Assembly (NCBI GenBank): GCA_030539275.1
Contig: JAUNSK010000013.1
Location: forward strand, 1 to 55,764
Length of the DNA stretch: 55,764 nt
Reading direction: 5' to 3'
Source: Oscillospiraceae bacterium
GTDB taxonomy: Bacteria; Bacillota; Clostridia; Oscillospirales; Ruminococcaceae
Shown here: piece after piece, positions 8,899 through 26,692 of the stretch
Layout of the letters: every line of letters begins with the position of its first letter
Position numbering within the stretch: position 1 is the stretch's first letter
Translations under genes and position numbers: made by a program
Notes under the pieces: generated by a model
What the model saw: only the letters and a program-made list of their open reading frames with translations
Told to the model about the DNA's origin: nothing
The model's database searches: none

Positions 8899-9891
8899 TT
8901 ATTTTTTCTTTAATTTTCTGAATATCAAAACTGATGCAGCTATTACAGCACATGAAACTGCTGCGATAACGGCCGGCAGAAATCCGCTTTTTTGTCCGGT
9001 CTTTTCCTTAAGAATATCCGTTGGAGACGTAACTGATTCAGTATTATCAGATCCGGTGCTCTTTGCTGTCTTTTCGGTAGTCTTTGCAGTTGTTGTCTTT
9101 GTGGCCTTACCTGACGTGGTCTGAGTGACAACAGCAGATGATGTTGTCTTTGTAGTGACTGCCGTTGCTGCAGTGGTCGTAGATGAGGTTGTCTGAGACT
9201 GCTGTGCCGGAGTATTGTTATTGTTGCTGCCATTATCCTGTGCAGGCTGCGGGTCATTGTTGTGAACCGGTTCTTCAGGCTGCTGTGGTTCAGGTTCCTG
9301 ATGAGGAGGATCGGCAGGAGTGTCAGGAGTCGAAGGAGGCGGTGTACTGCCTGTTATCTGTATTCCGCCGCCGCAAAGATTGCTGCAGTCAGAATATTCA
9401 TTCTGTCCCTCTAAACACATCGCGGTTGAAAAAATATCATAATGTGCAATAAAGTCAACCGGGAAGAAATCATTTACGCCCACATTATCGGGCAGCTTAA
9501 TGTTTAATTCAAGCATATCTCCGTTGTCACTTAAAGCAGAACCCTGCTGTGAAGGAACTGAAATTGACACGACATCATTGTCTTTGGTTGTACTGCAATT
9601 AATTTGAGGTATATTAGCAAAAATTTGTTGTGGATTACTGTCGTAGCTGAGCCTTGAATCTTTTCTCAGTACCATGTCCAGAACATAAAATCCCGGATTG
9701 CTGTCTATTGAGATCTTCAGAGTGATCACTCTGTTTTCAGGAATATCGTTAATGTCTATCTGTCTGGTTTCTATTTTCAGCGGAGCATCAACTGACTGCG
9801 CACTTATGATATAAGAGCTGCTGCAGTTTGACAACAGAAAAACAGATAAAAAGACACATGCTTTTTTTTGGAACTTGCTGTAAAGATTCAT
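8899..9891 (-). CDS. membrane-anchored cohesin-like surface protein
   Basis: I place the start at the ATG at 9891 (AAAGGA 8 bases upstream) and not at the in-frame GTG at 9915. The resulting 330 residues begin with a signal peptide (KKACVFLSVFLLSNC...ISAQS). A beta-rich domain of about 140 residues follows, with cohesin-like features: VITLKISIDSNPGF, then LSYD, then GDMLELNIKLPDNVGVNDF..PVDF. A long Pro/Gln/Asn then Thr-rich linker precedes a C-terminal helix (FLPAVIAAVSCAVIAASVLI) and a basic tail. Cohesins bind dockerins and build cellulosome-like complexes, and dockerin proteins are encoded at 43088 and 50663. The cohesin call is by pattern only; another carbohydrate-binding or Ig-like fold is possible. 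Confidence 0.6.
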   Translation of the reverse strand: MNLYSKFQKKACVFLSVFLLSNCSSSYIISAQSVDAPLKIETRQIDINDIPENRVITLKISIDSNPGFYVLDMVLRKDSRLSYDSNPQQIFANIPQINCSTTKDNDVVSISVPSQQGSALSDNGDMLELNIKLPDNVGVNDFFPVDFIAHYDIFSTAMCLEGQNEYSDCSNLCGGGIQITGSTPPPSTPDTPADPPHQEPEPQQPEEPVHNNDPQPAQDNGSNNNNTPAQQSQTTSSTTTAATAVTTKTTSSAVVTQTTSGKATKTTTAKTTEKTAKSTGSDNTESVTSPTDILKEKTGQKSGFLPAVIAAVSCAVIAASVLIFRKLKKK

Positions 9892-9934
9892 TGGATCTAT
9901 CCTTTCACTATGCACTTTTGCTTAATAATCAGAA

Positions 9935-10381
9935 CTAACCGATAATTTTCGGATCTGAATGTATTATAATTATATTTTTTAATATAACAAAATCATTGCT
10001 TAAGTTATCTGAGTTTTGCTGACCGGGAGATGCACCTGCTATTACAGTTCCTCCCGGGATACTCTGTCCGGATATTACAGTTCCTGTAGACTGCCTTACA
10101 GAACCGGTAACTGTATCAGATGACGTGGCTGTGTCCGAAGCAGGTAAGTATTCCTGTACAGGTATATCAGCACTCAGGTTTTTACGTACCTCTGATGTTA
10201 CGGTGTTCAGAGACTGTGTCACAGGGATCATTGCGTTCTTCTCATGCTTTTTTGAAGAAATTTCAAACCTCAGGAGAGAAAATATCTTAAATCGAATTAT
10301 CAGAACGATAGTTGATAATACAAATACAGCAGCCAGTATCAGTGAAATATCTGATATCAGCTTCCAGAATGTCAAGCCCAT
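9935..10381 (-). CDS. small single-pass membrane protein, unrecognised
   Basis: This 148-residue protein has one N-terminal membrane helix (ISLILAAVFVLSTIVLII, residues 10-30) and a basic stretch (RFKIFSLLRFEISSKKHEK). The tail is low in complexity and rich in Ser/Thr/Gly, with two similar motifs (GTVISGQSIPGG, GTVIAGASPGQQ). An excellent GAGGAGG site precedes the ATG. It sits 21 bases after the kinase gene and 43 before the cohesin-like gene, so it belongs to the phospho-signalling operon. The Thr/Ser-rich tail could be a kinase substrate if it faces the cytoplasm. I do not recognise a family. Confidence 0.75.
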   Translation of the reverse strand: MGLTFWKLISDISLILAAVFVLSTIVLIIRFKIFSLLRFEISSKKHEKNAMIPVTQSLNTVTSEVRKNLSADIPVQEYLPASDTATSSDTVTGSVRQSTGTVISGQSIPGGTVIAGASPGQQNSDNLSNDFVILKNIIIIHSDPKIIG

Positions 10382-10402: not shown

Positions 10403-12103
10403 CTATTTGTCATAAGAGCTTTTTATTGAACTGATGATACTATCATAGTTGCGAGTGATATCATCTTTTATCTGTCTGGTTTTATCAGTTGAAGCATTGA
10501 TGCTGTCCGTTTTGTCTTTTATCGATTCAAAAAGCTTCATCTGATCATCATAACTGACAAACAGTGAGAACTTGTAGGTGTATGCCTTGAGTGCATTCAT
10601 GGCAAGCTTATAGGTCTCCAGAAGTACTATTTCAGTTTCTGTATGATTTACATCAACAAACTCAACCATCTGATTGATGCTGCTCCAGTAATCAGAATAA
10701 ACCTGAGAATCACTGCCTTCGATAACCATCTTCTGAATATTTGAATAGAACGTACCGATATCATAGTATATCTGCGCCATCTGATAATTTTCCGGGTTTG
10801 CTTGTCTGAAGCTGTCATCAATAGCTTCAGAAAACCATTTGGTTGAAGAGGTGATCCTTGTAGTCTCATTGTCACTGTTGTTGTCAGATCCGTAATCATA
10901 GTAATACCAGTAAAGCTTGCCTATTTCAAATGCTAGACGCTGATAGGAAGGATCCTCTTTAAGTGTCTGTGAGTGTTCAGATGTAAGTTTGAGAAGAGCA
11001 GATGATTCATCTTCTGAGAATGAAACATCTTCTTTATATGTTTCGACAAGTCCGAAATATGCATCTGTCTGATCACCGTTCAGTTTTACAGCAGATGTAT
11101 AGGCTGCGATCTTTTCATTATATGAGGTCGCTTTCTGGGCTATAGTCATATAGTTATTGTAATCTGACTTCGTCATACTTTTGCATTTTAATGTTGAAAA
11201 GGCAAAAGTAAGTGAAAAGAAAACAGCAAGGGAACATGACAGTGCAGTTAGCTTTATATGTGTGCGTTTTGAAATAGAATCAAGAGCATGATAAAGTTCT
11301 TTGCATGATTTATAGCGCATATCAGGGTTATCATTGACACACCTGAGAATTATGCGCCTGAGCTCAGCATTTATATTTTTACTCTTGCTGTCAAATACGA
11401 AACGTTCATAAGAGTTCCTGCAGCCACCGTCAGAGCGGATGATCGAGACTGGTTTTTCACCGGTTGTCATATGATAAAGTGTTGCACCGATATTGAAAAT
11501 ATCAGTTCTTTTATCAAGACTCTTCTGCCTGTACTGTTCAGGTGCTGCATATTCGGGAGTATATTGTGCTGTACCTGTTTCACTTTGTATAACAGCACCG
11601 AAATCTATAAGTTTAAGATTACTGTACTTCTTGCTTTTATCAAGATTTTCAATGTTGCTGTCGGAACTCAGTATCATCAGATTGTCAGGCTTCATGTCAC
11701 TGTATATTTTTCCGTAATCATTTATGAAAGCAATAACAGAGCATATGTCTTTTCCGTATTCAATTACGTTTTTAAAAGAGAGGGGACCGGAAGAGAGAAG
11801 AACATTCATAGATTTTCCGTCTATAAAATCCATTACTATAAAAAGTGCATCATTGTTTTCTATGCGCTGAATTATATTAGGAAAGAAGTTGTATTTGTCA
11901 CGTTCATAAAGTTCCTTGATAAGAACTGACTCCTGTTTTGCAGATTCTGCTGCCTCTGCGCATCTCTTTGAAACTTCCTTTACAGCACGTACTGCCATAT
12001 TTGCCTGCAGATCACTTGCTTTGTAGACAACTGAAAGACCGCCTCTTCCTACTATACCGTCAATACGGTATCTTTTATCAAGTATGTATCCATTACTGAG
12101 CAA
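10403..12103 (-). CDS. membrane Ser/Thr protein kinase with extracytoplasmic helical domain
   Basis: The 566-residue protein starts at TTG (12103), with AAAGGTGG upstream. Residues 12-278 are a Hanks-type kinase: Gly loop VGRGGLSVVY, ATP lysine K42, alpha-C glutamate probably E58, catalytic loop YSDMKPDN (D136, K138, N141; the usual HRD is YSD), DFG at 167-169, and APE at 187-189. One membrane helix (about 283-303) leads to some 260 outside residues that look all-helical and TPR-like, not PASTA. Kinase, single helix and outside helical domain is also the layout of T7SSb EssB/YukC, whose kinase fold is inactive. Flanking genes encode the matching phosphatase and an FHA reader, and an EssC operon is divergent. 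It probably phosphorylates Thr on FHA partners or the secretion machine. Confidence 0.85.
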   Translation of the reverse strand: MLSNGYILDKRYRIDGIVGRGGLSVVYKASDLQANMAVRAVKEVSKRCAEAAESAKQESVLIKELYERDKYNFFPNIIQRIENNDALFIVMDFIDGKSMNVLLSSGPLSFKNVIEYGKDICSVIAFINDYGKIYSDMKPDNLMILSSDSNIENLDKSKKYSNLKLIDFGAVIQSETGTAQYTPEYAAPEQYRQKSLDKRTDIFNIGATLYHMTTGEKPVSIIRSDGGCRNSYERFVFDSKSKNINAELRRIILRCVNDNPDMRYKSCKELYHALDSISKRTHIKLTALSCSLAVFFSLTFAFSTLKCKSMTKSDYNNYMTIAQKATSYNEKIAAYTSAVKLNGDQTDAYFGLVETYKEDVSFSEDESSALLKLTSEHSQTLKEDPSYQRLAFEIGKLYWYYYDYGSDNNSDNETTRITSSTKWFSEAIDDSFRQANPENYQMAQIYYDIGTFYSNIQKMVIEGSDSQVYSDYWSSINQMVEFVDVNHTETEIVLLETYKLAMNALKAYTYKFSLFVSYDDQMKLFESIKDKTDSINASTDKTRQIKDDITRNYDSIISSIKSSYDK

Positions 12104-12119
12104 TTGTACGTACCACCTT

Positions 12120-12905
12120 TTATGAGATTGTTTTGATCAGCAGAGCTGTAATGTTGTCAGTTTCGTTCCTTGACATGTTAAGCTGCGTAAGACTCTCAAG
12201 TATCTGTGTCGCATCGCTGTCTGATGTGATCTTGTCAGGCCTGAGGGAAGTAAAAAGCTCGTCAGACGTGATTTTTTTTCTGAATCCGTCTGAACAGAGC
12301 ATATAGCAGCACTGAGTTTCATATTCAGATATCAGATAATCGTAAGATACGTTGGCAAGTCCGGCTCCCATACATTTGGTAAGCTGATTTTGTCTTGAAT
12401 CACTGCCTGCCATTTCCTCAGTCAGATTTCCTTTGCGTATTTCGTCGCCGACCACAGAGTGATCAGCAGTGAGTAAAGATATTCCGCTGTCAGTTATCCT
12501 GTAGAGTCTTGAGTCGCCTACATGCGCAGCAAGCATCTTGCCGAGAGTCGGAATTATGAACACAGCCGTCATTGTAGTTCCAAGGATCTTATTGTTTGTC
12601 TGTGCATAGTCATTTAGTTTGTCATTATTGCTGTGAAGATACTTATCAAGATTCTGTCTGATATCAAGCAGTTTTGCACCTGATTTCATGAGATCTGCAA
12701 ATGAAGTTTCAAACCATCGTGACAGACAGTCTATAATATATGCACTTGCGGTCTCACCGTCGCTGAGACCTCCCATCCCGTCACATACGGCAGCCATAAT
12801 GATCTGCTCGGAGCGGAATGAGGCTGTTTTTATGCAGAGTGCATCCTGATTTATCTGTTTTGCAATTCCTTCATCTGTGCTGTAAGCTGTAATATATGTC
12901 ATCAT
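12120..12905 (-). CDS. PP2C-family Ser/Thr protein phosphatase
   Basis: This 261-residue cytoplasmic enzyme has the PP2C metal ligands and motifs in order: NQDAL (residues 19-23), CDGMGG (D42), AHVGDSRLYR, a DHSV segment, LCSDGF and ETDNITALLI near the end. It would remove phosphate from Ser/Thr placed by the adjacent kinase. Two ATGs lie in tandem; GGAGG is only 2 bases from the first and 5 from the second (12902), so the second may be used. Spacing to the FHA gene (11 bases) and kinase gene (16 bases) shows a tight operon. Length is normal for the small PrpC/Stp phosphatases. Confidence 0.92.
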   Translation of the reverse strand: MMTYITAYSTDEGIAKQINQDALCIKTASFRSEQIIMAAVCDGMGGLSDGETASAYIIDCLSRWFETSFADLMKSGAKLLDIRQNLDKYLHSNNDKLNDYAQTNNKILGTTMTAVFIIPTLGKMLAAHVGDSRLYRITDSGISLLTADHSVVGDEIRKGNLTEEMAGSDSRQNQLTKCMGAGLANVSYDYLISEYETQCCYMLCSDGFRKKITSDELFTSLRPDKITSDSDATQILESLTQLNMSRNETDNITALLIKTIS

Positions 12906-12916
12906 TACCTCCGTGA

Positions 12917-14260
12917 TCAGTCCTTAATATAAAATGTGTAGCATGATGAGCAGACGCTGAATGAACAGCCGGAAAAAATGCATACCTGTTCTCCCGGTGC
13001 TACATTCTCATTTTCCACACTAAGTGATCCACATGATATATTTTTAATAAATATACTGTTGTCCGGATCATGTCTTTCAAATACTATTCCATCCATTTCA
13101 TCACTGCTAAACGGGTATGATGCCACATTAACTATACTTCCTGATTTGATATTTTTAATGTATGCTGCATACGAAGCAGGGGAGACTGAGCTTACACAAA
13201 GTGTCTGTGAAACAGCACCGGATGCTATGCAGGTTCTGGTGACTGCATCCGGACAGCTGAAAGTAAATGGAATATTATAAATATATATCTGGTCCTGATC
13301 ATTGAGCTGCTGTTTCTTTATTCTTTTTTTATTAATAAAAGTTCCGTTAGTTGAATTGTTGTCCTGAAGATAAAATGCATTATTTTCATTCAGTATGCTT
13401 GCGTGAAATCCTGAAACCTCAGGAATACTGCTGAGTGACAGATCAATATTCTGGCTTTTAGGATTTCTTCCTATATTGAAAGGAGTGTGGTCTATGACAT
13501 ATCTGCTTCCTGATGAATCTGTAAGAAATGCACAGTCTGACGAATAAGCCGGATTTTGCTGTACCGGATAAAAGTTCTGCTTGACCTGTTCCTGCACAGC
13601 GGGCGTGCTGTTTACTCTTTCGGGTTCTTTATGTACGGCAGGAGGAGCTGCATGCTGGGCAGGGGTGTTTTTAATATCATGAAGAAAATTGTACAGGTCG
13701 TTATGTGAAAAGCATGCGTTCTTGTTTTTGCATTTTTTCTGAATAAGCATATGGTGTTCAAGAAATTCCTGATATTTGCTCATTACATTTGAGTTAGAGA
13801 TTATTACGTTAGCTTTTTTGTTCATGTCATACAGGAACTTAACTATATTGGTGCTGTGACTGCTGTTTATGACAGGGAGATATGCCGCATATATTTTTTT
13901 TGAAAGTGGATCATAGTATATGTGATTCAGGCTGCAAAGCAGGTTGTTTACCGGCATTGTTGAATTGCTGCAGAACTCCATGATTTTCTGAAACTGTGAG
14001 ATAATATCAAAAAATTTGTCCTGAGGCATTTCGGATTTTATATATTCGGAAAGACAAACCAGATTACTGATGTTGAATACAAGTCTGTTTCCTGTGCCTG
14101 TTTTGGTCCATGTAACATTCAGCAGGCCGTTTTCGGATTTGTTTTCGAGAAACTGCAGCTGATTTTCATTTATGTGTTCTTTTCTTTTGAGTAAGAAAAT
14201 TAAGTAGGTGTTTTCCTGTCTGAATACTGTTTTTAGTTGGAACTCATCAAAATAACTCAT
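12917..14260 (-). CDS. FHA-domain phosphopeptide-binding protein
   Basis: This 447-residue protein has no membrane helix. The N-terminal 200 residues resemble the region found in front of FHA domains in related Firmicutes proteins (DUF6382-like; tentative). After a Pro/Gln linker comes a clear FHA domain at about 255-335: NIGRNPKSQNIDLS, then VSGFHASI, then DNNSTNGTFINKKRI, keeping the Arg, Ser/His and Asn that bind phosphothreonine. The last 100 residues may be a second beta domain. It is first in the minus-strand operon, with a promoter match at 14329-14357. It likely recruits kinase-phosphorylated partners, as Fha proteins do in type VI systems. EssC (18420) carries a second FHA domain. 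Confidence 0.88.
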   Translation of the reverse strand: MSYFDEFQLKTVFRQENTYLIFLLKRKEHINENQLQFLENKSENGLLNVTWTKTGTGNRLVFNISNLVCLSEYIKSEMPQDKFFDIISQFQKIMEFCSNSTMPVNNLLCSLNHIYYDPLSKKIYAAYLPVINSSHSTNIVKFLYDMNKKANVIISNSNVMSKYQEFLEHHMLIQKKCKNKNACFSHNDLYNFLHDIKNTPAQHAAPPAVHKEPERVNSTPAVQEQVKQNFYPVQQNPAYSSDCAFLTDSSGSRYVIDHTPFNIGRNPKSQNIDLSLSSIPEVSGFHASILNENNAFYLQDNNSTNGTFINKKRIKKQQLNDQDQIYIYNIPFTFSCPDAVTRTCIASGAVSQTLCVSSVSPASYAAYIKNIKSGSIVNVASYPFSSDEMDGIVFERHDPDNSIFIKNISCGSLSVENENVAPGEQVCIFSGCSFSVCSSCYTFYIKD

Positions 14261-14487
14261 AATCTGAATGCTCTGCTTTCTGTAAAATTATTTTTACGCA
14301 AATAAATGATATTTTTTTAGTCATTATAATTATATAATATATTATCATAATTTTCAAGTTGTTTAATCCAAAATATAGAATATTGTTTCAATTTGATAAA
14401 AACTAAAATATATTTATGCTTTTTACAAGTAATAAAGTAATATTAAATAGTAAAAAATTTACGTTGAGCCTGCAAAAAAAAACAAAA
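14261..14487. other. AT-rich leader and promoter region of the FHA operon
   Basis: Very AT-rich DNA with no credible gene. It holds the minus-strand promoter at 14329-14357 and ends at the terminator of the cupin gene. Confidence 0.6.
14329..14357 (-). promoter_or_regulatory. promoter of the FHA/PP2C/kinase operon
   Basis: The minus strand reads TTGAAA, 17 bases, TATAAT, ending about 69 bases before the ATG at 14260. This is a near-consensus housekeeping promoter. Confidence 0.7.
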
Positions 14488-14517
14488 GCACGCAGTCACA
14501 ATAGAATGACTGCGTGC
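14488..14517 (-). terminator. terminator of the cupin gene
   Basis: An 11-bp perfect stem (GCACGCAGTCA) with an 8-base loop is followed on the minus strand by TTTTG and a run of nine T. It lies about 80 bases past the cupin stop. Confidence 0.85.
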
Positions 14518-14598
14518 AAAAAAACTTATGTTCATTTTCCTTCAGCTTATGTTGTAAATGCATAATACTTTTTACCAGGCGGTCTTCCGGTATCATCT

Positions 14599-15018
14599 TC
14601 AGTCATCACTGCATTCATTTTTAGTTCTGTATACTGATCCCCTGTGAAGCTGCGGCGGTGAATACACTATTGACAGTTTCAGTTCCCTGTTTGAGGCATT
14701 GACAATATTATTCCATGTTCCGGATGCAATAAATACAGCATCACCTGCCGAGACATTTCCGGCATATTTGAGATCATGCTGTACCTGGCCCATGTAAACA
14801 CGTGCGTAACCGGATTCAACTCTGATCATCATATCAGCATACTCGTGCATTTTAACTCCTGTTTCACTTCTCAGCCCGATACTCATCAGTGCTGCCTGCA
14901 TATATCTTCCGGTCCATATCTCAGTCCTGAAATTTTTATTGTTGTAAGCCTGCCTTGTAAGATGTATAATAGCCGCATCACTGTCGTGACTGCATACAGA
15001 CTCATTTTTTTTATTCAT
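14599..15018 (-). CDS. cupin-domain protein
   Basis: This 139-residue soluble protein has a single cupin barrel. The motifs are G-VKMHEYADMMIRVESGYARVY (split here; residues about 55-75) and the second-motif region GDAVFIASGTWNNIVN. The end, SPPQLHRGSVYRTKNE, is typical of small cupins related to mannose-6-phosphate isomerase. One His and two acidic residues (H, E, D in HEYAD) could hold a metal, although the second motif has Asn where His is usual. AAAGGAGG precedes the ATG. It is monocistronic, divergent from the lyase gene. Substrate unknown. Confidence 0.75.
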   Translation of the reverse strand: MNKKNESVCSHDSDAAIIHLTRQAYNNKNFRTEIWTGRYMQAALMSIGLRSETGVKMHEYADMMIRVESGYARVYMGQVQHDLKYAGNVSAGDAVFIASGTWNNIVNASNRELKLSIVYSPPQLHRGSVYRTKNECSDD

Positions 15019-15239
15019 ACAGTACCTCCTTTTTATTTACTACTTTTATCTTATGCATAAGATGACATTGGGTGAAACGCAGAGAAATTATCTTAAAGCC
15101 GCCGTAATAATGGGTGTAAAAAATTTATTCTGCACTATATAAATTGTAAAGATGAGTCTGCCAGTTATTCTATATTTATTTTTCTTTAATATAAATAATC
15201 TGATTATTAAAGGATATGATAATATCGGAGGGATGGAAT

Positions 15240-16238
15240 ATGAATATTCAATTTGACGCCGTGTATTATGAGCCGGCGGCTATGGAGTACCAGCTTGGCA
15301 AAGAGATGCGTGAAAAATTCAAGGATCTGTCATGGACAGAAATTGAGTCGCACAACCGGATTCCGGAACTCAGCGCATCTGCAAACAAGGATTTTCCTAA
15401 ACTTAAGCAGCTGCTCATAATCGGGGTACGAAAAACACATAAGTATGTGGAAAATCATAAGGTGTCTGACTGGCTTGTTCCGTACACATCCTCCGGGTGC
15501 CGGGCAATGTGCCTCTACTGCTATCTGGTGTGCAATTATAACAAATGCTCGTATCTGCGTCTTTTTGTGAACAGGGAACAGATGATGGGCAAAATACTCA
15601 AAACTGATGCAGCTGCAGCGGTGCCTCAGACATTTGAGATCGGAAGCAACAGTGATCTTATTCTTGAAAATGTAGTAACAGGCAACCTCCCGTGGACAAT
15701 AGAGAAATTTGCAGCTTACGGACGCGGGCATCTGACACTTCCTACTAAGTTTGATATGGTGGAGCCTTTGCTTGGACTTGATCACAGGGGGAAGACAATT
15801 TTCCGAATGAGTGTAAATCCTCCTGATATAATCAGACGTGTTGAGCTTGGAACATCTCAACTTGATTCCCGTATTCGTGCTTTAAACTCAATGGCAGATG
15901 CAGGCTACCCTGTCGGCCTGCTGATAGCTCCCGTAATTCTGCTTGAGGGCTGGGAAAAAATGTACGGGGAACTTATCGATACACTCGCAGACAAGCTTTC
16001 AGACAAGGTAAGACAAACAGGATTCATTGAGATAATTCTTATGACATATAGTTTTGTACAGGATGCAATAAATACGGACGCTTTTCCGAATGCAGCTCCG
16101 ATATTTGACCGTACGATCATGACCGGACGAGGAAGAGGAAAGTACTGTTATAAAAATGATGCCCGGGCAAAAGCGGAAGCATTTCTGAAAGAGCAGATTG
16201 ATTCCAAACTTAAAATGAAGATATTGTATATTTCATGA
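15240..16238 (+). CDS. splB: spore photoproduct lyase-like radical SAM protein
   Basis: I take the ATG at 15240, with GGAGGG 7 bases upstream, over the in-frame ATG at 15216; this gives 332 residues. The radical SAM cluster motif CRAMCLYCYL (CxxxCxxC) is present. So are lyase-family segments LIIGVRKT, GKTIFRMSVN, LGTSQLDSRI and APVILLEGWE. The family uses SAM and a 4Fe-4S cluster to reverse the 5-thyminyl-5,6-dihydrothymine lesion in germinating spores. From memory of the Bacillus enzyme, the segment FEASCTSD holds the H-donor cysteine (C141); here it reads FEIGSNSD, with Ser at that place (residue 136). The enzyme may thus be altered or a paralogue. Monocistronic, with a terminator after it. 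Confidence 0.85.
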   Translation: MNIQFDAVYYEPAAMEYQLGKEMREKFKDLSWTEIESHNRIPELSASANKDFPKLKQLLIIGVRKTHKYVENHKVSDWLVPYTSSGCRAMCLYCYLVCNYNKCSYLRLFVNREQMMGKILKTDAAAAVPQTFEIGSNSDLILENVVTGNLPWTIEKFAAYGRGHLTLPTKFDMVEPLLGLDHRGKTIFRMSVNPPDIIRRVELGTSQLDSRIRALNSMADAGYPVGLLIAPVILLEGWEKMYGELIDTLADKLSDKVRQTGFIEIILMTYSFVQDAINTDAFPNAAPIFDRTIMTGRGRGKYCYKNDARAKAEAFLKEQIDSKLKMKILYIS

Positions 16239-16325
16239 CTTTGTCTGAAACTGACGTATGAAACGAATTTCTGCATGCCGTTCATCCTGGGACAGTTTCA
16301 AACTTATTAAATCAATTACCGTTTA

Positions 16326-16356
16326 ACGGGCAGGGATTCAAGGTATCCCTGCCCGT
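16326..16356 (+). terminator. terminator after the lyase gene
   Basis: A 12-bp perfect stem (ACGGGCAGGGAT) with a 7-base loop, followed by TTTGATCTT. It separates the lyase gene from the type VII operon. Confidence 0.8.
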
Positions 16357-16442
16357 TTTGATCTTAAACAGGACCTGAATGGGAAATGTTTCTGAATCAT
16401 GAAGCAATATATTTAAATGTAATAATATGCATATTTATTTTC

Positions 16443-16471
16443 TTGACTTTATTTAATGTATAATGTAAAAT
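16443..16471 (+). promoter_or_regulatory. promoter of the EssC operon
   Basis: TTGACT, 17 bases, TAAAAT, ending 36 bases before the ATG at 16508. It is well placed to drive 16508-23385. Confidence 0.65.
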
Positions 16472-16507
16472 TAGTCATAAAGCTTGTGCAAAAGGGGGAA
16501 AGATACT

Positions 16508-17449
16508 ATGGATTCACTACTTGAGCAATTGAAAAGAAAGCCTGCAATAACAGGAGAAGAGCTTGGTCTGTGCATTATCCGAAACGATATCAGCATTTAT
16601 TCTATGCAGCTTCACAATGTACATGAGAGTACAGCGCCGCTGCTTGATCAGGAGCAGCTTAACTCTTTGCTCTCAAAGATCAATTCTGTGGAAGATGCAG
16701 ATATTCTTGAATGTTATGTTCAGCTGCAGTCATTTGTACAGCGGTCCCAGGCTATGGCAAATGCATATAACCAGCAGGCACAGAATGGCTGCTGCCGTCT
16801 TATGATGTACATGACTCAGGCACAGCAGGTTGAGCATGCAAGAAAGCTGATCGAAAATCTGCCGATAATTATGACTGAAACACAGTTTCATGAGATGAAA
16901 AATCCTGGTAAGATCGCAAGAATGAGAGGCGTGGCAGTTGTCGCAAATGATTTTCCTTGCAGACCGAAATGTCTGGATATCAATGACTGCTTTATTGAGC
17001 CTGAAATAGACTGTTTTCAGGAGATGATGAGTCTTGAACGTACTGAAAGCATGGCAGACAAGATCAGATATTTCCGGGATGATCTGATGAAGCAGGGGGT
17101 AAGACATCAGCTTGCATATAACGAACTTTACATACTGATATCTGAGCGGATAGGACTTGATGAGTTTACAATATTCTGCATAGAAACAGATACTATTATA
17201 AATCAGATTAAAGAAATGAATTCACAGCGCATGGACTTTGAAAATGAGATAGCCGGAGAAGGTCCTGAGTTTGACAACAAGAAAAGAATTCTCAGCGAAG
17301 TGTTTGAGATCATTGATATAGACAGTTTGTACCCTGAAGAATGCAATATAGAAAAGGTCAGAGAAAAATTAAAAGATATTGATGTTCTGAGAACATCAAT
17401 GGATGAACTTATATCTGTACTGATGGGAGAGCAGAAGATAAATGGCTGA
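16508..17449 (+). CDS. unrecognised cytoplasmic protein, first gene of the EssC operon
   Basis: Start placed at the ATG at 16508 (AGGGGGAAAG upstream), not at the in-frame TTG at 16484; 313 residues. It is mostly helical, with no signal peptide or membrane helix. Cysteine is frequent for a cytosolic protein (GCCR, PCRPKCLDINDC, DCF, FCIE, EC), and the PCRPKCLDINDC cluster could bind metal. The C-terminal third (about 230-310) looks coiled-coil. The stop overlaps the next start by 8 bases, so translation is probably coupled with the Rep-like protein. I do not recognise the family. Position suggests a regulator or cytosolic partner of the EssC machine. Confidence 0.8.
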   Translation: MDSLLEQLKRKPAITGEELGLCIIRNDISIYSMQLHNVHESTAPLLDQEQLNSLLSKINSVEDADILECYVQLQSFVQRSQAMANAYNQQAQNGCCRLMMYMTQAQQVEHARKLIENLPIIMTETQFHEMKNPGKIARMRGVAVVANDFPCRPKCLDINDCFIEPEIDCFQEMMSLERTESMADKIRYFRDDLMKQGVRHQLAYNELYILISERIGLDEFTIFCIETDTIINQIKEMNSQRMDFENEIAGEGPEFDNKKRILSEVFEIIDIDSLYPEECNIEKVREKLKDIDVLRTSMDELISVLMGEQKING

Positions 17450-18413
17450 TTATAATGGAATTGACGGCAGTTCACAGCCCGTAGGGCGTGTACTGGAAAC
17501 AGATCTCCGTATAAATTCAGTCTCAAGAAATATCTTCTCAATTATGAGGCAGTCTACTGCAACAAACAAGCTGGCAACTCTGAAAACTGCAGACAGTATA
17601 GCAGATGCAGATGAATCAGACAGACTAAAGATTGAAAACGGAAATCTTCAGGTAACGCTTGAAAACTTTTCAACCCTCGGCAAGGGGATCAAAACAACGA
17701 CTCACAGGCTGGTTGATGCTATTATAGTAAGATTTACAGAGACAGGTTCCAAAGACAGCACGGTTTTTCTGTCTCTTGATGAATATATGAAGCTGTGCGG
17801 TCTTAAGAATCTCAAGGAGATCAGAAAACAGGTAAATTCAGAACTTAAGCTGCTATCAAACATGAAGGTAACTTTTAATAAGTCATCAAATCATGAGCAG
17901 AGCTTCTCAGACATCAGAATATGTGAAAGTGTTGAAATAAAAAATAATATAATATGTTTCAGATTCGGTCAGGAATTTTTCAGAATACTCAAAGGAATGC
18001 CTGTAATGCCTTATCCTATGAAGCTTTTCAATTTAAATAATAAAAGAAATCCGAACAGCTATTATTTCCTGAAAAAAATAGCTGAACATAAGAAAATGAA
18101 TTACTTTAAGAAAAATTCTGACACGCTGAGCGTAAAAACGCTTCTTGAATCCACACCTGAACTGCCGAGCTATGATGAGGTAGTAAATGGTGACAGGGCA
18201 GTTGCAAGGAGAATAATCGAACCTTTTGAACGCGACATGAATGAGCTTGCAGATGTACTGACATGGGAATACTGCCATACTAACGGAACGGTACTCTCTG
18301 ACGATGAGCTTGACAATTTCAGCTATCATATTTTCTATGGCCTTCTTGTCAGAGTATCATGGATCGATTATCCTGAGATTCAGAAAAGAAATAATAAAAG
18401 CAAAGGTGGGTGA
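17442..18413 (+). CDS. plasmid replication-initiator-like winged-helix protein
   Basis: This 323-residue protein resembles plasmid and phage Rep initiators of Firmicutes. After a disordered N-terminus comes KTTTHRLVDAIIVRFTETG with FLSLDEYMKLCGL and EIRKQVNSELKLL (first winged helix, about 85-150). Then follow MPVMPYPMKLFNLNNKRNP and SYYFLKKIAEHKKMNYF, and VKTLLESTPELPSYDEVV with RRIIEPFERDMNEL (second domain, about 195-275). It lacks a relaxase or HUH motif. It overlaps the upstream gene by 8 bases and ends 6 bases before essC, so it is an integral part of the operon and not a plasmid remnant beside it. It may bind DNA as a regulator, or show that the locus came from a plasmid. Confidence 0.65.
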   Translation: MADYNGIDGSSQPVGRVLETDLRINSVSRNIFSIMRQSTATNKLATLKTADSIADADESDRLKIENGNLQVTLENFSTLGKGIKTTTHRLVDAIIVRFTETGSKDSTVFLSLDEYMKLCGLKNLKEIRKQVNSELKLLSNMKVTFNKSSNHEQSFSDIRICESVEIKNNIICFRFGQEFFRILKGMPVMPYPMKLFNLNNKRNPNSYYFLKKIAEHKKMNYFKKNSDTLSVKTLLESTPELPSYDEVVNGDRAVARRIIEPFERDMNELADVLTWEYCHTNGTVLSDDELDNFSYHIFYGLLVRVSWIDYPEIQKRNNKSKGG

Positions 18414-18419
18414 TCTGTA

Positions 18420-21400
18420 ATGCTTCAGGTTACACTTATTCAGAAGGAATATGTAAATATGGCCACACTTCCGGATAAAAAGGAAGGTCATTATGGAGTT
18501 ACATATAAGACGGCTTCGGGAGATACCGGCAAAATCAATATTGACGGCAGTCAGAATTCCTGGAGGATCATGTCAGGAAACGAGTACAGGATAATTGACA
18601 GGATATCTGCAGGCAATGAAAAAGTATTTGCTGACATACATGTTCTGTCTGATCATGAAGTTTTTAAAATAGATATTGATAATGAAGACTGCATTATCAT
18701 GGTTGAACCGGTCGTTAAGGAAAGATGCAGATTTAAAAAGCTGTTTCTTAAGCAGGAAAATGCGAAGATAACTATAGGTAAAAACAAAAACAATAGTATA
18801 TGTATAGGCAGTGAGTATATTTCAGGAAATCATGCATCTGTCACAAGAGATTCAGACGGATGGAGTGTCAGTGATAATTCCAGTACAAACGGTACATATG
18901 TAAACAACAAAAGAGTCAGATCTTCAAAGCTTAACATCGGAGACACAGTATTTATACTCGGATATAAGTTTATCATTGGCTGCAATTTTATAGCAGCCAA
19001 CATCTGCAGTGACAGTGTGACATACGACAAAGGCATGTTTTTTGAAGCAAAGAGTACTGTCTCAGATAAAGATGATCATAAACTCTGGACAGATGAAGAG
19101 GATGAAGAGTATTTTTACAGGACAATAAAACTGGCAAGTGAAAGAGAAAAATCAAGGCTTATAAAGGTTGAGTCACCTGAACCAAGGGAAAAGGAGGACA
19201 AACAGTCTGTTCTTCTCACAATGGGACCGTCGGTTACAATGTGCAGTGCTTCAGTTCTTATCGCGGGTTATTCTGTTCTTGCAGCTTATTACAGAGGTAC
19301 CAGCTTCTCATATGTTGTTCCTTCACTGATAATGGCCGGAAGTATGGTAGGCTCTGCTGTCATCTGGCCTTTTGCACTTAACAAAGCAACCAGAAAGCGA
19401 AAGAAAAAAGAAGAGAATGCAAGACGTGAATCATATACTGAGTACATCAATACGATCCGCGGAGAAATAAAACGAATCATGAATGATGAATCGGATTATA
19501 TGAATGAAACATATTATCTCGCACAGAAATGTGCCCTCCTTGCATCAGGCGAGGACGGCAAACCGGACAAATATCTCTGGAGCAAAAATATAAACGACAG
19601 AGATTTTCTGACTGTCAGTATAGGAACAGGTAATACCGAACCTGACCTGAAAATCGAGTTTCCTGAGAAAAAGATCGCTGTTGTCAATGACAGCCTGAGC
19701 GACGATCTGTTCCAGCTTGCAAGCGAAGAGAGGATACTTAAAAATGTACCTCTTCCTGTATCACTTAAGGATGGCTGCATATGCGGACTTACCGGTGACA
19801 GGGAGGCTGCTGTCTCATTCACAAGAGCGGCAATTGTGCAGCTTACTTCACTGTACAGCTATGATGAACTCAAAATCGTATTTATCTACAATGAAAATGA
19901 GGAAGAATACTGGAAGTATTCAAGATGGCTTCCCCATGTATGGAATAATGACAGCACATTCAGATATGTTGCAGTATGTCATCAGGATATCAAGGAGCTT
20001 TCCTGTGTTATAGAAAAAGAGATAGATACGAGACTTGAGAAAAAGGAAGAGACATTCCCTCATTTCCTTATTGTAGCTGCAGACAGGGATCTGGCTGAAA
20101 AGCTTGATACGATGCCTCTTATATTAAAGAAGTATAAGGATATCAGCTTCAGTATGATCACACTTTTCGGAATGAGAAATTTCAGTGACTCAGAAATGAT
20201 CATTGACTTCAGAGGCGGTTCAAAAGCTGTTATGTATGACAGAAGAGAGGACTCGGAAAAGTCTTACGAATTTACTCCTGACAGTATAAACAGAGATCAG
20301 TTTGACAGGTATATAGACTCTATCGCAAATATAAGGCTTGATCTGTCAAGTGAAAGGTATAAGCTCCCTACGATGCTAACTTTTCTCGAAATGTTCAGGG
20401 TATCACGTGCAGAGCATCTTAACTGCCTGACAAGATGGGTAGATAATGATCCGACAAAATCCCTTCAGACTGCGATAGGCGTCAATCAGACAGGTGACAG
20501 CTTCTACATTGATCTTCATGAAAAATTCCATGGTCCTCATGGACTTATTGCCGGTACAACAGGTTCTGGTAAGAGTGAAACTATAATTACGCTTATTCTT
20601 TCACTTGCAGTCAACTACAGCCCTGAAGAAGTGGCTTTTGTAATCATAGACTATAAAGGCGGCGGTCTTGCTGACGCTTTTGAGAGTATTGAAAGAGTTA
20701 ATATAGACGGCAGGGTACAGGAAAAGATCGTAAAGCTTCCGCATCTTATCGGTACTGTAACAAATCTTGACGGTGCTACAATTGAACGTTCACGTATTTC
20801 AATTGAAAGTGAACTCAAGAGACGCCAGAGCCTTTTCAAGATCGCAAGACGAATATCAAATGAAGGAACAATGGATATATACAAGTATCAGAAGCTCAGA
20901 AGAAACGGAACTGAACTTGAACCGCTGCCTCACCTCTTCATAGTATGCGATGAGTTTGCAGAACTTAAGGATCAGCAGCCTGATTTTATGGATCTTCTTA
21001 TCAGTACTGCCCGTATAGGCCGAAGCCTCGGTGTTCATCTTATACTTGCGACCCAGAAGCCGGACAGCGTTGTAAGCCCTCAGATCTGGAGCAACTCACG
21101 TTTCAAGATCTGTCTTAAGGTTCAGGACCGTTCAGACAGTATGGCAGTAATTAACCGTCCTGAAGCCGCTGAGATATCAACTACAGGTAAGTTTTATCTT
21201 CAGGTCGGCTATAATGAATTTTTCAGTATGGGTCAGTCTGCATGGTGCGGAGCTGACTATATTCCGAGTGATGATTTTGTATCAGAAGATGTTGAGTCTG
21301 TTGAGATGATAAACAATACGGGAATGGTAATCTGCGAGAAGAAGAGGAAAACAGACACAGGAAAGTCAGATCAGGCTGTAGTAAGTCAGCTTGTAGCGGT

Positions 21401-23141
21401 AAGGCAGTATCTTATTGATATTTCTAAAAATATGGTAATAAGACCGCTGTGGCTTCTTCCGGTCCCATCTGTTTTGTCCATGCAGAGTCTGTACAGTGAA
21501 CGAAATGATAAGTCTGAGAAAAATATCCTTAATCCTGTTATAGGAAAATGGGATGATCTGTACAACAGAAAGCAGGACATCATGACACTCAATTTCTCAA
21601 GAGACGGAAATATCATGGTTTTCGGCTCAGCCGGCAGCGGAATGGGAATGTTCTTTACTTCACTTGTTTATTCTCTTATATATGGCTATTCACCCGAAGA
21701 GGTAAACATTTATATACTTGACTTTGACTCAGGATTTCTCAAGGTATTTGAGAAAGCTCCGCAGACAGGAGATGTGGTTATTTCTGAAGAAGATGAAAAT
21801 GTCAGAAAACTTGTTGCGTCTCTTAAGGACGAGATATTGCGAAGAAGCAAGCTGTTTGCACCATTCGGCGGTGAATACAGCGAGTACTGTGCTCATTCCG
21901 GAGAAAAGCTTCCGAATATTGTAGTTGTTCTTAATAACTTCTCATCATTTCAGGAGGAATATGAATCCTGTCTTCAGGATGTTATATACATATCACGTGA
22001 GGGAACAAAACGAGGTATTTATCTGGTAGTCGGTTCTTCAAATATAAATGTCAATTCAAGACTGCGTCAGAATATGAACCAGAATCTGCTGCTGAGAATG
22101 AATGATCCGACAGATTATTCACTTGTCCTCGGAAGAACAGGCGGAATAATCCCTTCGGCGTATCCCGGCAGAGGAATTGTAAAGTACGGTAAGCTGGTCT
22201 ATGAATTCCAGACTGCGGATATATTCGAAAAAATATACACCCCGTCAGACGATGAGACAGAAAGTGATGCTCCGACACAGGATCCTGCAGCACAGATAAG
22301 GGAACTCTGCGCAGAATCACTGACCAGATACAGCAGTGCAAGAGCAAAATCATTTATAACCAGGCGTCCTGATATCACTACAGTAATGAATATATCTGAG
22401 AGCGCGGATATACACAGCATACCTGCAGGTGCATGTACCGACAATGATGAATTATTCAGGATAGATCTGAGCGACAAGTATATCACATTCGTGTCATCAG
22501 CGAGTGAGGATAAACTCAGTTCCTTTGCACAGAACCTGGCAAAGATCATTTCACGTGACAAAAATATTGATGTCGCCGTACTTGATGCAGAGTCTTCATT
22601 TACACAGGAAGACAGCCGTGATTATGAATATGTATCGGGCAGTGATGACTTTGATAAGTGGCATGTAAAATACGGTGAAATGTGTATCGAACGTGATAAT
22701 CAGCTTTATAAGGATGAGTCAGGAAGCTACAGACTCCCTGACGGCATAAGAGATGTCTATATAATTATAAACTCCTTTGAAGCTGCTGCCAGAAAATCAA
22801 CCGAAACGGCTGCAAAGCTTATTCAGGGAATGCTGGGCTGTGAAATACACAACATACACTATATAGTTCTTGACACTCCTGAAAAAATGAATTCTTCAAG
22901 CGGATGCTATACAAATGTAATTGTCGGCAAAATAAACAATGCCATGGATTTTGAAGCAGAAAATCTGCATGAAGACTGGTTTGATCAGTTCGGAATCTGG
23001 CTTGGTGCAGGCCTTGCACGTCAGGGATTGTTCAGACTCGAACAGTCAAATGATCAGTCATCAGAGGATACTGCATGTGTAATATGTTCAAAAAGAGTCG
23101 TGGGTGTTTTCTACCCATTAACGGAGGCAAACTATGAATAA
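18420..23141 (+). CDS. essC: EssC-type FtsK/SpoIIIE ATPase of type VII secretion with FHA domain
   Basis: This 1573-residue membrane ATPase is the motor of T7SSb. The N-terminal part contains an FHA domain at about 95-185 (TIGKNKNNSICIG, ISGNHASV, DNSSTNGTYVNNKRV). Two membrane helices follow (about 267-290 and 297-320). Three FtsK-like domains come next. Domain 1 is intact: Walker A GTTGSGKSE (712-720) and Walker B HLFIVCDEF (838-846). Domain 2 has GSAGSGMGM (1069-1077), with Met in place of Lys. Domain 3 has VSSASEDK at about 1358 and looks degenerate. Length fits EssC/YukB. The gene ends overlapping yukD by 8 bases. FHA binding suggests control by the divergent kinase operon. The start ATG follows AAAGGTGGG. 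Confidence 0.93.
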   Translation: MLQVTLIQKEYVNMATLPDKKEGHYGVTYKTASGDTGKINIDGSQNSWRIMSGNEYRIIDRISAGNEKVFADIHVLSDHEVFKIDIDNEDCIIMVEPVVKERCRFKKLFLKQENAKITIGKNKNNSICIGSEYISGNHASVTRDSDGWSVSDNSSTNGTYVNNKRVRSSKLNIGDTVFILGYKFIIGCNFIAANICSDSVTYDKGMFFEAKSTVSDKDDHKLWTDEEDEEYFYRTIKLASEREKSRLIKVESPEPREKEDKQSVLLTMGPSVTMCSASVLIAGYSVLAAYYRGTSFSYVVPSLIMAGSMVGSAVIWPFALNKATRKRKKKEENARRESYTEYINTIRGEIKRIMNDESDYMNETYYLAQKCALLASGEDGKPDKYLWSKNINDRDFLTVSIGTGNTEPDLKIEFPEKKIAVVNDSLSDDLFQLASEERILKNVPLPVSLKDGCICGLTGDREAAVSFTRAAIVQLTSLYSYDELKIVFIYNENEEEYWKYSRWLPHVWNNDSTFRYVAVCHQDIKELSCVIEKEIDTRLEKKEETFPHFLIVAADRDLAEKLDTMPLILKKYKDISFSMITLFGMRNFSDSEMIIDFRGGSKAVMYDRREDSEKSYEFTPDSINRDQFDRYIDSIANIRLDLSSERYKLPTMLTFLEMFRVSRAEHLNCLTRWVDNDPTKSLQTAIGVNQTGDSFYIDLHEKFHGPHGLIAGTTGSGKSETIITLILSLAVNYSPEEVAFVIIDYKGGGLADAFESIERVNIDGRVQEKIVKLPHLIGTVTNLDGATIERSRISIESELKRRQSLFKIARRISNEGTMDIYKYQKLRRNGTELEPLPHLFIVCDEFAELKDQQPDFMDLLISTARIGRSLGVHLILATQKPDSVVSPQIWSNSRFKICLKVQDRSDSMAVINRPEAAEISTTGKFYLQVGYNEFFSMGQSAWCGADYIPSDDFVSEDVESVEMINNTGMVICEKKRKTDTGKSDQAVVSQLVAVRQYLIDISKNMVIRPLWLLPVPSVLSMQSLYSERNDKSEKNILNPVIGKWDDLYNRKQDIMTLNFSRDGNIMVFGSAGSGMGMFFTSLVYSLIYGYSPEEVNIYILDFDSGFLKVFEKAPQTGDVVISEEDENVRKLVASLKDEILRRSKLFAPFGGEYSEYCAHSGEKLPNIVVVLNNFSSFQEEYESCLQDVIYISREGTKRGIYLVVGSSNINVNSRLRQNMNQNLLLRMNDPTDYSLVLGRTGGIIPSAYPGRGIVKYGKLVYEFQTADIFEKIYTPSDDETESDAPTQDPAAQIRELCAESLTRYSSARAKSFITRRPDITTVMNISESADIHSIPAGACTDNDELFRIDLSDKYITFVSSASEDKLSSFAQNLAKIISRDKNIDVAVLDAESSFTQEDSRDYEYVSGSDDFDKWHVKYGEMCIERDNQLYKDESGSYRLPDGIRDVYIIINSFEAAARKSTETAAKLIQGMLGCEIHNIHYIVLDTPEKMNSSSGCYTNVIVGKINNAMDFEAENLHEDWFDQFGIWLGAGLARQGLFRLEQSNDQSSEDTACVICSKRVVGVFYPLTEANYE

Positions 23142-23385
23142 AATACTGACAGAAATATATTTGCCTGCTAACGGCAAAAGCTATGAGGTATATCTGCCTG
23201 AAAACATGTATGCCGGAGATGCAGCGCAGCTGCTTGCAGATCTGTTTACAGAGGCGGCAGGAGGATTTTACTGCCGTGATGATGTAAATATACTCTGTGA
23301 CAGGTTTGAAGGCCGTGCTTTTGACTCAGACAAAACTCTGAAGGAGCTGAATGTTAAGAATCATTCCATGCTTATGCTTGTCTGA
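23134..23385 (+). CDS. esaB: YukD/EsaB ubiquitin-like protein
   Basis: This 83-residue protein has the ubiquitin-like fold pattern of YukD/EsaB: ILTEIYLPANGKSYEVYLPEN (strands 1-2; quoted in part), a helix AGDAAQLLADLFTEA, and LKELNVKNHSMLMLV at the end. Family members are T7SSb parts of regulatory or assembly role and are not known to be conjugated; no C-terminal Gly-Gly is present. It overlaps essC by 8 bases, giving coupled translation and stoichiometric supply. Confidence 0.88.
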   Translation: MNKILTEIYLPANGKSYEVYLPENMYAGDAAQLLADLFTEAAGGFYCRDDVNILCDRFEGRAFDSDKTLKELNVKNHSMLMLV

Positions 23386-23630: not shown

Positions 23631-23945
23631 ATGTCAAACCAAAACAGAAGTCTTACAGAGGGTACAGCGGTTCTGAGAGCAGCAGCTAATCAGATCACAT
23701 CTATTGCAAATGATTTCTTCACTACTTATTCAAATCTTTTTATCAAGGTCAACAATGATCTTGCAAACAACTGGGTAGGTGAGGACAGCACAACATTTGT
23801 AACAAAGGCAAATACATATGAGCCGAAGTTCAAGGAAATGTACAATATCATGAACGACTACTCAAACTTCCTGATCCAGACAGCTACTTCTTATGAGCAG
23901 CAGATCCAGGATGTCAAGAACGTTGCAAACACAATCGAATTTTAA
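23631..23945 (+). CDS. WXG100-family (EsxA-like) secreted protein
   Basis: This 104-residue protein is all-helical with the WXG turn at W48-V49-G50 (LANNWVGEDSTTF) in the middle, the mark of ESAT-6/EsxA helical hairpins. There is no signal peptide. The C-terminus reads YEQQIQDVKNVANTIEF; the strict YxxxD/E signal is not met, although Tyr and acidic residues are near. AAGGAGG precedes the ATG. It is closely related in pattern to the protein at 26387 (shared NDL..WVG and YEQQ). It probably dimerises with itself or with a WXG100 neighbour and is exported by EssC. Confidence 0.92.
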   Translation: MSNQNRSLTEGTAVLRAAANQITSIANDFFTTYSNLFIKVNNDLANNWVGEDSTTFVTKANTYEPKFKEMYNIMNDYSNFLIQTATSYEQQIQDVKNVANTIEF

Positions 23946-23977: not shown

Positions 23978-24292
23978 ATGGCAGATACAGAGAGAATTTT
24001 TTTAAACCATGCGGAAATTAAGAACTGTGCTCAGCAGATAGGTTCTTACAACGAGAAGATCAAGGATCAGCTTGATGACTTTGCAACACAGATAAGCAAG
24101 GTACAGAGCTGGGATGCAATGGGTGCTTCAGAAATGAGAGATAACTTCAACGCTCTGAAACCTGACTTCGCAAAGTTCTATGAATATCTCAGCAAGGTAG
24201 TTAAGTTCATTAATCAGAACGTTTCTGATGATGCTATCACTCTTGATACATCAATCAAAAACAACGCAATGCCGCTTAAAAAACGTATATAA
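23978..24292 (+). CDS. WXG100-like protein with a WDAMG turn
   Basis: This 104-residue all-helical protein starts after AGGTGAAATAAA. Helix 1 (AQQIGSYNEKIKDQLDDF) and helix 2 (EMRDNFNALKPDFAKFYEYL) flank a turn reading SWDAMGASEM (W45 to G49), two residues longer than the usual W-x-G. It is probably the partner of the EsxA-like protein encoded 32 bases upstream, as EsxA/EsxB pairs are co-transcribed. A hairpin follows the stop. Confidence 0.82.
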   Translation: MADTERIFLNHAEIKNCAQQIGSYNEKIKDQLDDFATQISKVQSWDAMGASEMRDNFNALKPDFAKFYEYLSKVVKFINQNVSDDAITLDTSIKNNAMPLKKRI

Positions 24293-26386: not shown

Positions 26387-26692
26387 ATGAACTTAAACAG
26401 ACAGGCGCAGCTTGACGAAATGTATGAAGCTGCAAGAAACATTTCTGCAATAGCTGAGGAATACAATATCAGTTACAGAAAAATCTACAGTATAACCAAC
26501 AATGATCTTAAAAATGCCTGGGTCGGTCAGGACAGTGATTCATTTATATCGAAGATGAACAGTGTTCAGGTTAAGTTTGAGAAGATGTATGATATAATGA
26601 TCGATTACAAACAGTTTATTCTGGATGCTGCGACACGATATGAACAGCAGATGAATGAGAATAAGGATCTGGCACAGAAACTTGATTTCTGA
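26387..26692 (+). CDS. WXG100-family secreted protein (third copy)
   Basis: This 101-residue all-helical protein has the turn W45-V46-G47 (LKNAWVGQDSDSF) and the end YEQQMNENKDLAQKLDF, close in pattern to the protein at 23631. It has no signal peptide. It starts 15 bases after the lipoprotein stop (AAAGGTGTG site), so it is in the same transcript. A strong terminator closes the type VII region after it. Confidence 0.9.
   Translation: MNLNRQAQLDEMYEAARNISAIAEEYNISYRKIYSITNNDLKNAWVGQDSDSFISKMNSVQVKFEKMYDIMIDYKQFILDAATRYEQQMNENKDLAQKLDF

Follow-up and report, generated by a model that had tools for sequence, protein, structure and literature searches.

The closest described relative of the locus analysed here is T7SSe, a kind of type VII secretion system that was defined in 2024 by the same gene set (PMC11217815). 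That study is sequence-based and, in the part of it available to us, proposes that T7SSe is controlled by threonine phosphorylation, with the T6SS as a parallel, and leaves the phospho-acceptor unnamed. A phosphothreonine pocket is described there as conserved on the FHA domain of T7SSe EssC, though no requirement for it is stated. According to the same part of the source, the EssC FHA domain of T7SSb has no phosphothreonine site, yet binds EssB, and IreK affects T7SSb through transcription in Enterococcus; in T7SSj, EssC clusters with T7SSf and T7SSb, the kinase is a TPR kinase and there is no TseH. Among the literature searched, PMC11217815 is the only source that uses the names T7SSe and T7SSd or that brings DUF6382 together with type VII secretion. 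An earlier note on this DNA had presented a phosphorylation trigger for type VII secretion, modelled on the T6SS, as new. Because such control had already been proposed for T7SSe with the same analogy, the central idea is not new. What we describe is an already published type of system, altered in lineage-specific ways, together with a more precise and testable conjecture as to which part carries the phosphate and which part reads it.

The window (the whole stretch of 55,764 nucleotides analysed, contig JAUNSK010000013.1 of an Oscillospiraceae bacterium) belongs to the genome designated G000; compared loci carry L numbers. Among the matches listed, the closest named relatives are Ruminococcus. 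The locus spans positions 2839-26692 and consists of two halves, a minus-strand signalling series and a plus-strand transport series. The range given in the earlier note, 10403..23385, is too short: the gene series extends beyond both ends. Past the kinase lie genes for proteins of 148 aa (one TM), 338 aa (membrane protein) and 2014 aa (Ig domains), and past the YukD-like gene those for three WXG100-type proteins and one Big_2 protein. The genes it had read within that range are all present, the minus-strand FHA, PP2C and membrane kinase genes by profile matches, and the plus-strand FHA-bearing EssC together with a gene that is YukD-like by position and relatives, its Pfam match being weak. 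The features are the following.

2839..8883, minus strand: TseI-like protein, 2014 aa; hydrophobic N-terminus (by eye), Ig-like domains, C-terminal TM
8899..9915, minus strand: predicted cohesin-fold membrane-anchored protein, 338 aa; Thr-rich linker, C-terminal TM
9935..10381, minus strand: TseK, 148 aa; one N-terminal TM, tail with TVISG and TVIAG, conserved C-terminal segment
10403..12103, minus strand: TseD, membrane Ser/Thr kinase; Pkinase E=1.8e-30, catalytic residues present
12120..12905, minus strand: TseF, PP2C/PPM phosphatase; PP2C_2 E=5.2e-9, metal-binding Asp present
12917..14260, minus strand: TseJ, DUF6382 (E=2.5e-9), FHA with complete pocket (E=4.3e-17) and C-terminal strand-rich domain
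14599..16238, between the two halves: cupin (minus strand) and spore photoproduct lyase-like (plus strand) genes
16484..17449, plus strand: 321-aa protein, no assigned family; upstream of EssC in Ruminococcus-clade loci
17442..18413, plus strand: Rep3-type winged-helix protein (PF01051 E=2e-5); upstream of EssC in Ruminococcus-clade loci
18420..23141, plus strand: TseC, the EssC ATPase, with N-terminal FHA (E=1.2e-14); TIGR03928 875 bits (cut-off 778)
23134..23385, plus strand: TseB, YukD/EsaB-like, 83 aa; by position and by matches to same-place genes in relatives
23631..23945, plus strand: TseA, WXG100 protein
23978..24292, plus strand: TseA2, WXG100-type, below the Pfam cut-off
24350..26371, plus strand: Big_2-domain protein, lipoprotein-like start (by eye)
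26387..26692, plus strand: third WXG100 protein

The cupin and spore photoproduct lyase-like genes are probably not part of the system, since they are missing at the equivalent place in L001 and L002. The Pfam ubiquitin match of TseB (E=0.061) lies, like the match of TseA2, below the curated cut-off. Domains recognised in the TseI-like protein are Big_13 (E=9.9e-10) and Big_3_3 (E=3.6e-7), with the TM at residue 1988; a PDB sequence search with this protein gave no match, and an iterated TseI profile recognises genes that follow TseK in loci of Neobacillus, Clostridium and Bacillaceae. The Big_2 protein is possibly a substrate or an envelope part, and the third WXG100 protein a possible co-secretion partner. 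No second small one-TM gene that could correspond to TseH was seen in the locus, the criterion being gene size and TM and not comparison with a TseH sequence. Rfam and tRNA scans of the window returned no match. The Rep3-type protein (17442-18413) is a replication initiator-like winged-helix protein encoded upstream of EssC, and a large open-ended ORF with RTX calcium-binding repeats occupies positions 51987-55763.

In a FastTree tree of 112 EssC rows, from which same-locus repeats (L021, L100-L103, L118) and EssC frames shorter than 1,200 aa had been left out, the window EssC falls in a 52-row group (local support 91) with Neobacillus rows (L032) and a Coriobacteriia row, L071, which sits on a long branch. 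This group is apart from four T7SSb rows, labelled by the YukC/EssB next to EssC in their genomes, and from four FHA-less rows and one T7SSf-like row, the labels T7SSc (for the FHA-less rows) and T7SSf-like being assigned in this analysis. EssB and EsaA gave no match at E≤0.001 in the window's genome (96% complete); the B. subtilis control was detected. The features of T7SSe that were found comprise the FHA-bearing EssC, TseD, TseF, a DUF6382+FHA TseJ, TseK, TseI, WXG100 proteins and the YukD-like TseB. In T7SSe, EssC is allied to TsdC/TseC and not to T7SSb, TseK has one TM and a cytoplasmic portion that is short and unstructured, TseI combines a signal peptide with Ig-like domains and a C-terminal TM, and TseH is a single-TM protein. 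Judged by its sequence, the locus is of the T7SSe type, with a signalling half opposite in strand to the transport half. A second, shorter EssC (about 1,370-1,400 aa, N-terminal FHA) occurs in G000:C27 (L007), L008 and L016-L018, and is adjoined by a LytTR gene in L018.

Of at least 79 relatives' loci listed, 37 were taken further. In L001 and L002 the two halves adjoin each other in divergent orientation, and the cupin and photolyase genes are missing from between them; TseI was not found beside the cassette in these two loci, and the cohesin-fold gene likewise lies outside the fetched stretch. In Ruminococcus flavefaciens FD-1 (L100, L022), the genes for TseJ, TseF, TseD, TseK, the cohesin-fold protein, TseI, the 321-aa protein, the Rep3-type protein, EssC and WXG100 follow each other on one strand, and it is because the same genes are co-stranded there that we regard the two series as halves of one locus. 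All labelled genes of both halves also share one strand in three further records (L101-L103 with L023-L025), TseF being uncalled in L102, and TseF, TseK and the 321-aa gene in L103. In Neobacillus mesonae (L032) the order is EssC, TseB, two TseA, TseJ, TseF, TseD, a small one-TM gene and then TseI, and 16 of 20 Bacillaceae TseJ loci have EssC within the fetched stretch. Within the genus (11 genomes), an intact EssC of at least 1,554 aa is found in four (G000, G005, G008, G010); all four carry the cassette, and it is adjacent in the three where contigs allow. Besides these there are untyped EssC matches that are incomplete or shorter, for example at G005:C197, G005:C198 and G010:C26 and, as a C-terminal piece, in G003, which gave no cassette match; an EssC in G010 (L015) has internal stops and was left unaltered. 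The linkage of the two groups asserted in the earlier note is borne out by these arrangements, whereas a strict link, by the co-occurrence test that it named, is opposed by cassettes lacking EssC and by a DUF6382 family found mostly elsewhere; the two sister loci in which TseI is missing beside the cassette also speak against it.

Thus, a second TseJ-TseF-TseD-TseK cassette of the same genome (L006, G000:C47:5890-10234) has no EssC in the fetched stretch; it lies next to a vWA+FHA gene and a two-component system, and its TseJ gives two FHA matches. A cassette of the same four genes without EssC in the stretch is also found in L009 (G001:C6). The sole EssC of that genome (96% complete) measures 1401 aa and lies on another contig, none being intact above 1,401 aa. 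The window kinase is closer to the kinases of L006 and L009 (2e-195, 3e-217) than to those of L001 and L002 (2e-151, 1e-160), while TseJ shows the opposite trend, being closer to L001 and L002; an exchange between cassettes may possibly account for this mismatch in sequence. Across 398 genomes sampled from the phylum, EssC (E≤1e-120) is present in 20 and DUF6382 in 34, and since only two of these 34 have EssC within 10 kb on one contig, the DUF6382 family as such is not bound to EssC. In L104 and L120-L122, genes for DUF6382+FHA proteins for which two TMs are predicted lie among other membrane genes, with no EssC in the stretch and in surroundings that, by eye, resemble a Tad-type cluster. It could be argued from the cassettes without EssC, and from the DUF6382 proteins far from any EssC, that kinase, phosphatase and TseJ form a portable signalling cassette with another output, placed beside EssC by descent or chance. 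This is improbable in our estimate: the cassette is a near neighbour of EssC in loci of Ruminococcus, Neobacillus, Clostridium and Bacillaceae, and genes that probably correspond to the vWA+FHA gene adjoining the G000:C47 cassette, judged by their size, TMs and gene neighbourhood, are found near the second EssC of L008 and L016-L018.

Turning to the enzymes of the signalling half, TseD has one hydropathy-predicted TM near residue 283 and retains the Lys, the HxD Asp, the Asn, the DFG Asp and the APE Glu; it has Ser-Asp at a site that is Arg-Asp in 24 of the 32 cassette kinases. TseF matches the Stp1 model with E=1.5e-44, yet remains under that model's cut-off, and is one of five PP2C matches in the genome. 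Kinase and phosphatase residues are kept in 31-32 of 32 cassettes. These catalytic residues and the FHA pockets (see below) fit the threonine-phosphorylation switch that the earlier note had put forward, as far as residues can indicate.

The same note had made the FHA domain of EssC the reader of the phosphate. The pocket residues Arg, Ser/Thr and Asn (with His) are what we take to be the phosphothreonine-binding site. In the window EssC these read Lys-Ser-His-Asn, so that the pocket reported as conserved in T7SSe is incomplete here, Arg being replaced with Lys; the Arg position is occupied by Gln in L001-L003 and L022, and by Ser in L024 and L025. The broader association of pocket and kinase was scored in 76 EssC loci, 36 of the 112 rows being uncounted because the FHA or its Arg column was unreadable or because no kinase was seen and less than 7 kb lay downstream. 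A full pocket (Arg, Ser/Thr, Asn) is present in 31 of 43 loci with a kinase and in 5 of 33 without, and Ser/Thr plus Asn are kept in 41 of 43 and 9 of 33, respectively; this association is mostly one deep split of the tree, and an independent-pairs test (7 pairs) shows nothing. EssC and TseJ pockets were then compared in 31 kinase loci, L129 and L140 having been dropped for EssC frames without an N-terminus. The full pocket is on EssC only in 23 loci, on TseJ only in 6, on both in 2 and on neither in none. Loci with the TseJ-only pocket (the window, L001, L002, L022, L024 and L025) form one clade, and L023, of the same clade, has a full pocket on both proteins, as expected of a halfway state; outside this Ruminococcus clade most TseJ proteins are without a full pocket. 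Because the complete pocket is on TseJ alone in the window, TseJ rather than EssC is likely to read phosphothreonine in this organism. The EssC FHA domain is, for its part, well formed and keeps Ser, His and Asn, its pocket is complete in 25 of the 31 loci with kinase and TseJ, and the Lys might still hold a phosphate. Given the substitutions of Arg throughout the clade and the intact TseJ pockets of the same six loci, we nonetheless rate a phosphothreonine-reading EssC in this organism as the least probable of the alternatives considered.

TseJ was searched for with a DUF6382-only profile, as an FHA-inclusive profile drew in EssC FHA domains and missed true TseJ. In an AlphaFold model of the window TseJ (mean pLDDT 78), the best fold matches of the FHA domain are GarA, OdhI and EmbR; FHA domains filled the fold searches, which thus speak to the FHA part of TseJ. 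The C-terminal strand-rich domain aligns with the second FHA of the L006 TseJ. When 66 DUF6382 sequences were aligned by hhalign with the cytoplasmic portions of four EssB proteins (assigned to YukC by Pfam), the probabilities were 82% and 64% in the two directions, over 165 columns. DUF6382 against true kinases gave 82% over 77 columns, EssB against those kinases 13%, and unrelated controls (PP2C, two EssC parts, YukD-like) at most 1.4%. DUF6382 thus resembles the EssB pseudokinase at the level of sequence profiles.

The tail of TseK, whose TM is assigned by hydropathy and whose cytoplasmic placement is presumed, is the candidate phosphate carrier. No Pfam family matches the window TseK. A profile made from 16 Bacillaceae TseK C-termini and searched over 2514 ORFs gave 25 matches at E≤0.01, namely the 16 builders and nine others (eight genes) in the place of TseK; the window TseK match is weak (E=0.0031), and most Ruminococcus-type TseK proteins lie above the limit. 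In a discovery set of 15 tails, T[VIL][LIV] occurs 36 times against 11.8 in shuffled sequences, the Ser control being also raised (26 vs 10.8). The TseK rule and two patterns were fixed before 20 further Bacillaceae loci were fetched. The preset rule gave TseK in 16 of these loci; it was missing in L126, L128, L135 and L139, and that of L135 was recovered by the C-terminal profile. In the 16 held-out tails, which come from one family (Bacillaceae) and include near-identical members, T-x-[LIV]-[LIV] occurs 150 times against a shuffled mean of 20.2 (maximum of 1000 shuffles, 35) and exceeds the tail's own shuffles in every case (p≤0.021 each). T[VILAST][LIVP] occurs 136 times against 55.0 (maximum 74), with p<0.05 in 9 of 16 tails taken alone; the Ser control gave 11 vs 33.8 and the polar controls 59 vs 62.6 and 162 vs 164.9. 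A narrower pattern, T[ETSAMV][VLI]L, chosen after the held-out tails had been viewed, is found 136 times in TseK tails (4.3 expected from shuffling) and 30 times in 20 TseJ linkers (1.8), as compared with TseI (4 vs 9.7), TseD (3 vs 3.3), EssC (7 vs 9.3), TseB (0 vs 1.3) and WXG100 proteins (0 vs 1.0). It is also above chance in PP2C (15 vs 3.3), and some instances therefore need not be phosphosites.

Nine Ruminococcus-type tails, all within the discovery set where the motif was first seen, have T[VIL][LIV] 20 times (5.7 in shuffles) and T-x-[LIV]-[LIV] 15 times (5.6), against controls of 8 vs 6.4 for Ser and 18 vs 21.0 for polar residues; three of the nine are significant alone. The window tail has two sites of the form Thr-hydrophobic-hydrophobic (2 vs 0.65, p=0.12) and zero T-x-[LIV]-[LIV]. 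The repeats suggest that TseK tails carry a ladder of phosphothreonine sites, the window tail being a weak case. One might suppose instead that the contacts made by the FHA and pseudokinase domains serve structure and do not depend on phosphate, as in T7SSb, where a site-less EssC FHA binds EssB and IreK works through transcription (see above), with kinase and phosphatase acting on expression or on some other target. That each of the 31 loci has a complete pocket on one of the two proteins, EssC or TseJ, and that TseK tails bear threonine repeats, makes such an arrangement unlikely, if less so than the other two alternatives.

On balance, and by a narrow preference, we favour a joint model in which TseD writes on TseK, TseF erases, the TseJ FHA domain binds, TseJ docks on EssC and transport is turned on. 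The membrane kinase TseD would sense the outside or the state of the envelope and phosphorylate threonines in the cytoplasmic tail of the neighbouring TseK, from which TseF would remove the phosphates. The phosphorylated tail would be bound by the FHA domain of TseJ, while the EssB-like DUF6382 of TseJ would dock on the FHA region of EssC in the manner of EssB in T7SSb. In this way phosphorylation would bring TseK, TseJ and EssC together at the membrane and start transport. Most of the other T7SSe-like loci read differ in that EssC has the complete phosphothreonine pocket. More tentatively, and at somewhat less than even odds, it seems conceivable that the TseK ladder (up to 17 candidate sites), written by TseD and erased by TseF, grades FHA recruitment and thereby fires type VII secretion, and that in the Ruminococcus clade the role of reader has passed during evolution to TseJ from EssC, which TseJ would hold as a bridge through its EssB-like domain. 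Should TseK prove to be the acceptor, and TseJ or EssC the reader, a few purified proteins and short peptides would suffice to test whether type VII secretion is under post-translational control.

The 338-aa protein has no Pfam family below E=0.07 and no match in a PDB sequence search. Its AlphaFold model, built from 5 sequences, has an overall pLDDT of 56, with residues 41-160 at about 69-94, and all 35 best PDB rows in Foldseek are cohesin, cohesin-dockerin or scaffoldin entries (best E=1.1e-6), the top entry being ScaE of R. flavefaciens. The gene is found in the Ruminococcus clade only, among the loci examined, and two dockerin proteins are encoded in the window. The predicted cohesin fold may point to a link of the secretion system with the Ruminococcus cellulosome.

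Compared with T7SSe, the window shares the FHA-bearing EssC, the YukD-like TseB, two WXG100 proteins, the membrane kinase, the PPM phosphatase, the DUF6382+FHA protein, the one-TM TseK and the large Ig-domain TseI. It differs in the opposite strand of the signalling half, in the replaced Arg of the EssC FHA and in an unrecognised TseH, and it adds the cohesin-fold, 321-aa and Rep3-type proteins and the extra C-terminal domain of TseJ. T7SSj has the kinase, phosphatase, J, K and I parts in common with the window, and TseH is absent from it in the available part of PMC11217815; its EssC is near those of T7SSf and T7SSb, whereas the window EssC is outside the T7SSb and T7SSf-like rows of our tree, which holds no known T7SSj sequence. 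With T7SSb the window shares the EssC ATPase, YukD, WXG100 and, in DUF6382, a likeness to the cytoplasmic domain of EssB; the window has a kinase and a phosphatase, and EssB and EsaA are the parts not found in its genome. In GarA, according to the part of PMC5448819 available, an ETTS phosphosite in an unstructured extension binds the protein's own FHA domain. Bacillaceae TseJ linkers similarly have GTTVLG-like sites before the FHA; GarA, however, is a metabolic regulator, and the linker of the window TseJ is without the GTTVLG-like form. Finally, the threonine phosphorylation pathway of the T6SS reportedly runs through PpkA, Fha and TssL, and its phosphatase is PppA. A membrane kinase, an FHA reader, a phosphatase and, as proposed here, a phosphorylated membrane partner would be common to both, but the T6SS is an unrelated secretion machine, to which the window system is analogous without being a member. 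If the proposal is true, two unrelated machines, the T6SS and the T7SS, share the same control logic.
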